Shown: positions 43,439 through 55,550 of the stretch, piece by piece
Position numbering within the stretch: the first letter of the stretch is position 1
Layout: each line of letters opens with the position of its first letter
NCBI GenBank assembly: GCA_025454875.1
Contig: JALONP010000009.1
Span: 1 to 64,000 of the forward strand
Reading direction: 5' to 3'
DNA from: Bacteroidia bacterium
GTDB taxonomy: Bacteria; Bacteroidota; Bacteroidia; UKL13-3
Length of the DNA: 64,000 bases
Made by a program: the position numbers and the translations under genes
The notes under the pieces: model-generated
Told to the model about the DNA's origin: nothing
Database searches by the model: none
What the model saw: the letters and a program-made list of their open reading frames with translations, nothing else

Positions 43439-43454
43439 TAAATGAATATCACTT

Positions 43455-43500
43455 TAAACAGAAAGGGCTCAACTGCTAGCAGTTGAGCCCTTTCTGTTTA
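43455..43500. terminator. 46-base perfect palindrome, likely bidirectional terminator
   Basis: From TAAACAGAAAGGGCTCAACTG on the left to its exact reverse complement on the right, the two 23-base arms join without a spacer. It lies between purQ and accD, which converge, so it probably ends both transcripts. The perfect length without a loop is unusual; the transcript would fold around a central 4-base loop. Confidence 0.8.
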
Positions 43501-43513
43501 ACAAAAAACAAAC

Positions 43514-52821: not shown

Positions 52822-53003
52822 AACCCCGTTCGCGCGAGCGTCTCGCTCGTGCATTACCATAAATAAACACAAAGCCCAACCCAGTGTAAAAGCTTGGTTG
52901 GGCTTTACGTTTTAAGGGGTATAAACTATTTATAAGGATTTTAGCAACCCACGCATTACAAATGCGCGGGAACATAGTGCAAGATGCTCGCGCGAACGGG
53001 GTT
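52822..53003. repeat. 182-bp element with 18-bp terminal inverted repeats
   Basis: AACCCCGTTCGCGCGAGC at 52822-52839 recurs as its exact reverse complement at 52986-53003. Inside are further hairpins (GCGAGCG-tct-CGCTCGT at 52834-52850; CGCATT-aca-AATGCG; and the stem of the terminator below). GTAG precedes the left end. This is the look of a REP/BIME-type or MITE-type intergenic element, much richer in GC than its surroundings. No coding ORF fits inside. I see no target-site duplication. Confidence 0.6.
52871..52906. terminator. hairpin, possible terminator for GT2 and tRNA-Arg
   Basis: AAAGCCCAACC pairs with GGTTGGGCTTT around a loop of 14 bases. Both flanks are short A and T runs, so either strand may use it. 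It lies inside the 182-bp inverted-repeat element. Confidence 0.6.
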
Positions 53004-53037
53004 TTTCGGGACAAGAGACCGGTGCCCTTATTTTTAG

Positions 53038-53109
53038 TAGTCTCAGCGGGAATCGAACCCACATCAAAAGTTTAGGAAACTTCTATTCTATCCATTGAAC
53101 TATGAGACC
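53038..53109 (-). tRNA. tRNA-Arg (anticodon CCT)
   Basis: The minus strand gives acceptor GGTCTCA/TGAGACT (G-U at the end), D arm GTTC...GAAT, anticodon loop TTCCTAA (CCT, reads AGG), and T arm GTGGG-TTCGATT-CCCGC, with A as discriminator and no encoded CCA. 72 bases. Its 5' end is the start of the tandem repeat described next, and no promoter lies directly upstream. Confidence 0.93.
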
Positions 53110-53324
53110 AATATTCTATCCATTGAATGCCGCAACTGTCAAAATCTTTGATTTTGCTTAGTTGCGAGCATCCTCGAAAAACTACGCAAACTTTGTTTGC
53201 TATTTTTCGGGACTATGAGACCAATATTCTATCCATTGAATGCCGTAACTGTCAAAATCTTTGATTTTGCTTAGTTGCGAGCATCCTCGAAAAACTACAC
53301 AAACTTTGTTTGCTATTTTTCGGG
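53099..53324. repeat. two tandem 113-bp units carrying tRNA-Arg fragments
   Basis: Units 53099-53211 and 53212-53324 are identical except for two bases (C to T at the GCCGYAAC position and G to A in ACTACRC). Each contains, on the minus strand, the tRNA-Arg acceptor plus linker GGTCTCATAG, then TCCCGAAAAA, two hairpins of the same plan (unit 1: 53132-53165 and 53175-53209, both with TTT loops), and a copy of the D-arm run TTCAATGGATAGAAT. The next 11 bases after unit 2 repeat the acceptor stub again. A minus-strand CATTTTTG (53348-53355) beyond the array resembles the tRNA's original -7 box. Confidence 0.85.
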
Positions 53325-53374
53325 ACTATGAGACCAAAACGCATCCGCAAAAATGCTCTTTTTTCTTCACATTT

Positions 53375-55474
53375 TTACTTCACCACACTACCAGGTTCAA
53401 TATCTTTTTCAGAGCCTACGCTGTATAGTTTTCCAAAATCGTTGCCTGCCATTAACAACATACCCTGGCTTTCAATACCTCGTATTTTGCGAGGAGCCAA
53501 GTTTGCCACAACGGTAACCAATTTACCAACCAAATCTTGAGGCTGATAATACTCTGCAATGCCACTTAAAATGGTGCGTTGCTCAAACCCTAAATCAACT
53601 GTGAGTTTTAGCAGCTTATCTGCTTTGGGTACCCTTTCGGCTGCCAATACTTTACCCACGCGTAAGTCTATTTTATCAAAATCCTCATAGGCAATATCGC
53701 TTTTTACAGGGTGGTGTTGTGGGGCCTTTATCGTTTCGGGGCTACTGCTAATAGGTGCTGCAACGGTTTCGTTTTCTGTTTTAATTCGTTGCAACCGATC
53801 CAATTGAACTTGAATTTCTTCATCAGCCACTTGTTTATAAAGGATTTCTGCCTTGTTAAGTTGGTGGCCATCAGGTAAAATATTTTCGTTAAATAAACCG
53901 TTCCATGCCAACGTAGGAGCCTTTAACATTGCCTTTAACCGAGTTGCTGTATGTGGCAAAAAGGGTTCGGCTGCAATGGCCAACTTTGCACAAATTTGAA
54001 TAGCATCATACATAATCGCCTTGGTATTTTCTTCATCTGTTTTCACCAGTTTCCAAGGCTCTGTTTCGGCCAAATATTTGTTTCCGGCTCGTGCTGCATC
54101 CATAAAGCAACTAAGTGCATCGCGCAATTTAACGGCATCTAGATGCTGACGCATTTGGTGTAAGCTATTTCCCAATGCATCAAAACATGTTTCACGTGCA
54201 GCTTTTAGTTTTTCGTCTTTCAATTCACTTAATACACGAGGAACTTTTCCTTCGTAGTATTTTTCGCTAAGTACAAGTACCCTGTTTACAAAGTTTCCAA
54301 AAATGCTTACCAATTCGCTATTTACACGTGTTTGATAATCTTTCCAAGTAAACTCGCTGTCTTTGGTTTCGGGCGCAATAGAAGTAAGCACATACCGCAG
54401 TTCATCTTCCCTATTTGGGAAATCAACTAAGTACTCGTGTAACCATACAGCCCAATTGCGTGAAGTTGAAATTTTATCACCCTCTAAATTTAAAAACTCA
54501 TTGGCTGGGATATTGGTTGGTAAAATAAAGTTGCCGTGTGTCATCAACATCATTGGAAAAATGATGGCATGAAACACAATATTGTCTTTGCCAATAAAAT
54601 GGACAAGTGACGTTTCTTTATCCATCCAATATTTTTCCCATGCTGCCGTGCCATTAAAATACTCTTTGGTAGCACTAATGTATCCGATTGGCGCATCAAA
54701 CCAAACATACAACACTTTTCCCTCAGCGCCTTCAATTGGTACGGGTACTCCCCAATCTAAATCACGAGTCATGGCACGCGATTGCAATCCATCATTTAAC
54801 CAGCTTTGGCATTGGCCTTTGATATTTGATTTCCAAGAATCAAACCTTTGAATATACTGCTGAAATGCTTCGCTTTGTTGCAACTCACCCATCGGTAAAA
54901 ACCAGTTTTTGGTTTCTTTTAACACTGGTGAGGCGCCACTTAACGCAGATTTTGGGTTGATTAAATCGCTAGGGCTTAAACTGGTTCCACATTTCTCGCA
55001 TTGGTCGCCATACGCATTTGGGTTGCCGCAGCGAGGGCATGTTCCGATAATATACCGATCGGCTAAAAACTGCTGGGCTTCTTCGTCATAATATTGTTGT
55101 GTGGTTTCTTCTTTAAATATGCCTTTATCATACAAGGTTTTAAAAAAGGCTTGCGCAGTTTGATGGTGGATAGTTGAAGAAGTACGGCCGTAATAGGTAA
55201 AGTCGATGCCAAATGCTTTAAAGGCATTTTTCATAATACCATCGTATTTATCAACTACTTGTTGCGGTGTAACACCTTCTTTTTTGGCTTTAATGGTAAT
55301 AGGTACTCCATGTTCATCACTCCCACAAATAAATACCACATCTTTTCCTTGTGCCTTTAGGTAGCGCACATAAATATCAGCAGGTAAATAACATCCTGCC
55401 AAATGACCAATATGCACAGGTCCGTTGGCATAAGGCAATGCTGCTGTAATTAAGTATCGTTTTGGTTCTGTCAT
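53375..55474 (-). CDS. metG: methionine--tRNA ligase
   Basis: Charges tRNA-Met. About 699 residues from the ATG at 55474, which begins TEPKRYLITAALPYANGPVHIGHLAG; the frame's ATG at 55519 lies upstream of the promoter and is rejected. It has the class I signature HIGH as HIGH-like HIGHLAG, the zinc knuckle CPRCGNPNAYGDQCEKC, KISTS for the KMSKS loop, the anticodon-binding helices and a C-terminal EMAPII-like tRNA-binding domain (DFDKIDLRVGKVLAAERVP) at about 590-699. A consensus-like promoter lies just upstream. Confidence 0.96.
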   Translation of the reverse strand: MTEPKRYLITAALPYANGPVHIGHLAGCYLPADIYVRYLKAQGKDVVFICGSDEHGVPITIKAKKEGVTPQQVVDKYDGIMKNAFKAFGIDFTYYGRTSSTIHHQTAQAFFKTLYDKGIFKEETTQQYYDEEAQQFLADRYIIGTCPRCGNPNAYGDQCEKCGTSLSPSDLINPKSALSGASPVLKETKNWFLPMGELQQSEAFQQYIQRFDSWKSNIKGQCQSWLNDGLQSRAMTRDLDWGVPVPIEGAEGKVLYVWFDAPIGYISATKEYFNGTAAWEKYWMDKETSLVHFIGKDNIVFHAIIFPMMLMTHGNFILPTNIPANEFLNLEGDKISTSRNWAVWLHEYLVDFPNREDELRYVLTSIAPETKDSEFTWKDYQTRVNSELVSIFGNFVNRVLVLSEKYYEGKVPRVLSELKDEKLKAARETCFDALGNSLHQMRQHLDAVKLRDALSCFMDAARAGNKYLAETEPWKLVKTDEENTKAIMYDAIQICAKLAIAAEPFLPHTATRLKAMLKAPTLAWNGLFNENILPDGHQLNKAEILYKQVADEEIQVQLDRLQRIKTENETVAAPISSSPETIKAPQHHPVKSDIAYEDFDKIDLRVGKVLAAERVPKADKLLKLTVDLGFEQRTILSGIAEYYQPQDLVGKLVTVVANLAPRKIRGIESQGMLLMAGNDFGKLYSVGSEKDIEPGSVVK

Positions 55475-55485
55475 AAAATATAGGG

Positions 55486-55515
55486 CAAATGTAAGGTTTT
55501 GTTGCTTGGGGTAAA
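55486..55515 (-). promoter_or_regulatory. metG promoter
   Basis: Minus strand: TTTA (55512-55515), 18 bases, TACATTTG (55486-55493). The -7 box is exact and ends 11 bases before the start codon, so the transcript leader is at most a few bases. Confidence 0.6.
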
Positions 55516-55550
55516 ACAAAAATGAGGGCCCAATTTTTTAATAGGAGTAT

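Follow-up and report, generated by a model that had tools for sequence, protein, structure and literature searches.

The window (the whole stretch of DNA that was analysed, 64,000 nucleotides) carries an intact tRNA-Arg(CCT) gene that is separated from the preceding gene, metG, by two nearly identical hairpin units, each of which contains pieces of that same tRNA. This arrangement raises the question of what these units are, how they might have come to lie beside the tRNA gene, and whether they do anything for it.

The tRNA-Arg(CCT) locus in the window and in related genomes

Read along the minus strand, the locus consists of metG, a spacer of about 40 nt, the two 113-bp units and the intact tRNA-Arg(CCT), and comprises the following features:

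53375-55519, minus strand: metG, methionyl-tRNA synthetase (ORF, named from its sequence; synteny with tRNA-Arg in relatives)
53348-53355, minus strand: candidate -7 box CATTTTTG, weak, its promoter position being assigned by analogy with other arrays
53326-53335, minus strand: distal unit, copy of tRNA nt 1-10 (GGTCTCATAG), from sequence and unit alignment
53241-53325, minus strand: distal unit, 85-nt double-hairpin element, from folding and pairing
53225-53240, minus strand: distal unit, copy of tRNA nt 11-26, then TT at 53223-53224
53213-53222, minus strand: proximal unit, copy of tRNA nt 1-10 (GGTCTCATAG), from sequence and unit alignment
53128-53212, minus strand: proximal unit, 85-nt double-hairpin element, from folding and pairing (genomic homologues at tRNA-Leu genes only)
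53112-53127, minus strand: proximal unit, copy of tRNA nt 11-26 (TTCAATGGATAGAATA), then TT at 53110-53111
53037-53109, minus strand: intact tRNA-Arg(CCT) (ARAGORN; Rfam RF00005, 64.9 bits)
53002-53020, minus strand: GGTCTC...TCCCGAAAAA, 3' of tRNA-Arg, perhaps the start of a decayed unit, short and uncertain

Taken in register, the two units occupy positions 53099-53211 and 53212-53324 and are 98% identical; a third copy of ACTATGAGACCAA lies beyond them, at 53325-53337. On the minus strand, each unit is composed of GGTCTCATAG (tRNA nt 1-10), the 85-nt element (reading TCCCGAAAAA...GGCA), TTCAATGGATAGAATA (tRNA nt 11-26) and TT, and the insertion point is nt 10/11 of the tRNA, within the D stem and not the D loop. 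Hence, both the pair of units and their succession of an acceptor stub, two hairpins and a copy of the D arm, as described in an earlier note on this DNA, are borne out by alignment and folding. The same note had reported a third junction on the other side of the tRNA; its two motifs are indeed present (TCCCGAAAAA at 53002-53011 and GGTCTC at 53015-53020), but only about 16 nt are shared with the units, and the junction may represent a decayed one. The two units are devoid of ORFs, and thus of the integrase that an integrase-driven island would carry; no GIY-YIG gene is located nearby, and an Rfam search of the region returned the tRNA alone above the cut-off, with no rtT match. Two further inverted structures were observed in the window: a pair of 25-nt inverted repeats (AACCCCGTTCGCGCGAGC...), 132 nt apart, located just 3' of tRNA-Arg (52822-53003), and a perfect 48-nt hairpin (43454-43501), which is probably a bidirectional terminator.

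The 85-nt element is predicted to fold into two adjacent hairpins (-23.7 kcal/mol, z -7.6, with none of 200 shuffles folding as well). When the region was used as a query, the body of the element was found elsewhere in the 2.98-Mb source genome only beside three tRNA-Leu genes. Two 152-bp units with an element homologue are present at tRNA-Leu(TAA), and one and a half units at tRNA-Leu(CAA); at tRNA-Leu(GAG), the source assembly breaks within the upstream unit array, between the end of one contig and the start of another, which suggests an unresolved tandem array. In seven element copies from the tRNA-Arg and tRNA-Leu loci, standard pairing holds in 138 of 140 cells and both sides have changed at 6 of the 20 hairpin pairs, which argues that the hairpins have been kept. 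The covariation was counted on hairpins registered by hand (MAFFT misaligned the hairpin ends). The element thus comprises two adjacent conserved hairpins and no protein, as double-hairpin elements do, a likeness that is one of form only.

A homologous unit is located at the syntenic metG-tRNA-Arg locus of two relatives; therefore, the units are no assembly artefact. At the same locus, UKL13-3, which belongs to the same genus, harbors a plain partial tRNA copy in which no hairpin or palindrome has been plugged; in a further genus, TCCCGCACTTGCGGGA takes the place of the anticodon arm in a tRNA-Arg copy lying upstream; two other relatives, G007 and G040, have no unit at the metG-tRNA-Arg locus. 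In several relatives, tRNA-Arg lies directly 3' of metG, in G007 just 4 nt past the stop codon.

Plugged tRNA copies and GIY-YIG genes across Bacteroidota

When the sequences flanking about 31 tRNA genes of the source genome were inspected, hairpin-interrupted tRNA pieces came to light at several more of them, including those for Asn, Pro and Leu(TAG). The general layout is that of an intact tRNA adjoined by partial copies, with 5' pieces upstream and 3' pieces downstream, in which an arm or a loop has been exchanged for a palindrome, most often TCCCGATAGCTATCGGGA; as an example, in a tRNA-Asn copy the D-loop AGCT is exchanged for TCCCGATAGCTATCGGGA. Mirror-image 3' pieces follow tRNA-Gly, tRNA-Met (whose 3' copy has its anticodon loop replaced) and, apparently, a tRNA-Leu. 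The palindrome TCCCGATAGCTATCGGGA is found, too, in place of the AGAT of dispersed GCCGC-AGAT-TACGCAGATT repeats, by the same 4-nt exchange that is seen in the tRNA D loops. Another palindrome type (CCTGCCTGTCCGGTAGGCAGG) is located downstream of tRNA-His, apparently in a superoxide dismutase-like gene. The idea that the unit is tied to tRNAs holds for the double hairpin, of which no copy without a tRNA link was found in the source genome, but not for the short palindrome, which also occurs away from tRNAs.

In 64 family genomes, a pattern describing a D-loop plug was matched 32 times and its reversed control twice. The same pattern, run against some 85,000 species genomes, yielded at least 116 stretches, versus about 2 expected by calculation; among the 80 stretches listed, whose taxonomic make-up may be biased, nearly all are labelled Bacteroidota, with one Chlorobiota and one untyped bin. 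The intact cognate tRNA (16 anticodon types) lies just downstream in 90 of 104 D-loop matches; the remaining 14 include about 9 that extend past the end of the sequence examined. Since the left edge of the plug was set by the search pattern itself, these data are informative for its right edge, for the end of the copy and for the presence of the tRNA. The plug takes the place of exactly 3-4 D-loop nt in 75 arrays, which represent 16 anticodon types, and the copies in these arrays end near tRNA nt 25-32; in 68 of the arrays, the sequence common to the copy and the intact gene extends just 0-7 nt upstream of nt 1. Copies chosen without a palindrome criterion are also broken at nt 10-18 or 22-27, and the inverted arms of their inserts have a mean of 6.3, versus 3.7 in shuffles. 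A T-loop pattern gave 78 matches in 395 class genomes, versus 6 for its control, and the cognate tRNA was found upstream, within the DNA examined, at 17 of 35 sites inspected. Viral contigs yielded no D-loop and three T-loop pattern matches, that is, no sign of phages as the main carriers.

Overall, the plug sites vary, embracing D, anticodon and T arms or loops, and some 3' pieces retain an intact T loop. The occurrence of such units at many tRNAs throughout Bacteroidota, together with the empty sites and the other unit types that relatives show at the metG-tRNA-Arg locus, supports the earlier proposal of an insertion into the tRNA 5' half, followed by regeneration of the tRNA and tandem repetition.

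In some of these arrays, the units also encode a protein. In the complete genome of UKL13-3 (CP012155.1), a PacBio assembly (PMC5248499), the intact tRNA-Asn is preceded by 11 tandem 80-bp 5' units and followed by eight tandem 410-bp 3' units, each of the latter containing a GIY-YIG ORF and a 3' piece of tRNA-Asn. Nearly all of these pieces have CCCCGATAGCTATCGGGG in the T loop, and they share the trailer and the terminator with the intact gene. In the tRNA-Met array of a UBA2371 contig, it is the 5' units (419 bp) that enclose a GIY-YIG ORF, as would be expected if both sides used the same agent. The unit-encoded proteins match Pfam PF01541 (E 2e-11 in UKL13-3 and 2.1e-10 in UBA2371), and the nearest solved structures are those of UPF0213 protein BH0048 and, weakly, of SLX1, a structure-specific nuclease.

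In six family genomes, with tRNA genes and GIY-YIG genes mapped separately from each other, 15 of the 39 small GIY-YIG matches (14 of 38 loci) follow a tRNA of the same strand at a distance of at most 800 bp (binomial p ~1e-23), i.e., at the putative target, where a homing endonuclease gene is expected. A 3' piece of the same tRNA is present in about half of the pairs checked, and several pairs also carry plugged 5' pieces, some with two plugs. Many small GIY-YIG genes do not adjoin a tRNA, and the GIY-YIG copy number does not differ according to whether a family genome has D-loop plugs (Mann-Whitney p 0.32). About eight tandem 69-bp GGTGGTTTCGACTTCGCTCAACCACC-hairpin repeats, with no tRNA nearby, were observed directly 3' of a GIY-YIG gene of UKL13-3 (~2558916-2559450). 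As for the ORF-free units of the window, the architecture that they share with these arrays suggests a tie to GIY-YIG enzymes.

Origin of the units and transcription of the tRNA

On balance, the units of the window probably belong, as non-autonomous members, to a family of small mobile elements that live on tRNA genes throughout Bacteroidota. Each unit would comprise a piece copied from the target tRNA, with one or more arms or loops exchanged for a palindrome or a double hairpin, and of a short spacer, which in autonomous members would encode a GIY-YIG nuclease of 75-100 residues. By analogy with the phage enzyme SegB (PMC13096335), this nuclease, acting on related sites, might cut the tRNA gene in a loop; the repair of the break would then copy the unit in, and the tRNA piece of the unit would restore an intact, promoter-read tRNA on one side, the displaced tRNA piece retaining the hairpin plug. 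Plugged copies would lose the cut site; the regenerated intact site could be cut again, and units would accumulate in tandem. The regeneration of the insertion site would thus account for the tandem growth of the arrays and for the invariable position of the intact tRNA at an end of each. Since 5' units would end up in the pre-tRNA leader, which RNase P removes, and 3' units in the trailer, the cost to the host is likely to be low. Cutting at just one site in the T loop was dismissed as the sole cause, and more generally one cut site cannot explain all the units, because the plugs differ in the arm that they occupy and some 3' T loops are intact.

It is possible, and is suggested here tentatively, that these elements constitute a distinct class, in which a GIY-YIG nuclease together with hairpin plugs would act on cloverleaf loops of tRNA genes, restore the tRNA at every insertion and so form tandem arrays on either side of it, with hairpin-only mini-elements being mobilised in trans across isotypes throughout Bacteroidota.

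It might be argued that palindromic repeats, REP-like or double-hairpin-like, spread alone and gather in non-functional partial tRNAs generated by tandem duplication, the GIY-YIG gene being a passenger. The palindrome does occur outside tRNAs, including the dispersed repeats with four bases exchanged, the number of GIY-YIG genes is uncorrelated with plugs, and at least one partial copy (UKL13-3 tRNA-Arg) is free of a plug. We nevertheless consider this explanation unlikely, given the uniform position of the plug in the 75 arrays, the start of the copies at or near tRNA nt 1, unlike that of random duplications, and the GIY-YIG ORFs lying within units on both sides. An RNA-templated origin, with copies made from folded tRNA or from cDNA and re-inserted next to the gene, would agree with fragment starts that match nt 1 within a few bases and with plug sites that coincide with the D, anticodon and T loops or arms; however, the trailer and terminator in the UKL13-3 tRNA-Asn 3' pieces are absent from the mature tRNA, and this origin appears very improbable.

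The location of the promoter bears on a possible function of the units. The Bacteroidota -7 consensus, TAnnTTTG, lies upstream of 45 of the 75 arrays and in only 3 of the 75 spacers that precede the intact tRNA, which suggests that units normally belong to the precursor and are discarded on processing. In general, then, the claim that the units part the promoter from the tRNA is supported, but at tRNA-Arg it is less secure, the box CATTTTTG having one mismatch to the consensus and no clear -33 TTTG. Since CATTTTTG is weak and the tRNA directly follows metG in relatives, tRNA-Arg(CCT) is as likely to be transcribed by read-through from metG as from the candidate -7 box. The earlier suggestion that the leader tunes the supply of tRNA-Arg through RNase P finds some support in its predicted structure (z -5.3), with the distal stub competing for the 3' acceptor strand in the minimum-energy fold, but is scarcely credible in view of a unit number that lies anywhere between 0 and 11 in relatives and is not constant even at the metG-tRNA-Arg locus, of mirror-image 3' units that have no leader role, and of the nuclease genes harbored by some units.

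If the mobile-element interpretation is correct, a large phylum harbors overlooked tiny parasites that use essential tRNA genes as harmless landing sites and that break short-read assemblies at these genes. Hairpin repeats would be linked to a GIY-YIG nuclease, mitochondrial hairpin elements and SegB-driven amplification would have a counterpart in bacteria, and tRNA gene fragments would have a testable source. No description of such arrays, nor the palindrome core, was found in the text of the literature searched; most subscription journals lie outside its coverage, so this is weak evidence of novelty.

Comparison with known systems

The E. coli tyrT repeats (rtT RNA) form a tandem series next to a tRNA, a piece of which begins every repeat, and are confined to the 3' side of one locus. 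The arrays described here are likewise tandem repeats with tRNA pieces; unlike rtT, they occur on both sides of the tRNA and at many loci, and they do not match the Rfam rtT model. REP elements and REPINs are linked to RAYT transposases and have palindromes tagged with GTAG or GGAG. The 85-nt element of tRNA-Arg has no GTAG tag. Short palindromes repeated in bacterial genomes are common to REPs (PMC3733652) and to the present elements, whereas here the palindromes are plugged into tRNA copies and the linked enzyme is a GIY-YIG protein.

The insertion of islands and prophages into tRNA genes likewise leaves an intact tRNA together with a partial one (PMC9897764), but the units considered here measure 50-420 bp, lie on the 5' or the 3' side and have a hairpin in the partial copy. 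The double-hairpin elements of fungal and sponge mitochondria are short single or double hairpins that encode no protein and have inserted repeatedly (PMC2800124); the likeness to them is one of form alone, the bacterial elements being tied to partial tRNA copies and to GIY-YIG genes. As for SegB-like free-standing GIY-YIG homing endonucleases, the phage enzyme SegB cuts within tRNA genes, prefers the motif RAWTSGAAC and is needed for the tandem amplification of tRNA-Tyr (PMC13096335); in our own comparison, the complement of this motif resembles the tRNA T loop. The GIY-YIG domain, the location of the gene beside tRNAs and the tandem amplification are shared with SegB (PMC13096335), whereas here the genes reside on bacterial chromosomes and encode single-domain proteins of 75-100 aa with putative cleavage activity, and the units hold plugged partial tRNA copies, many of them being gene-free.
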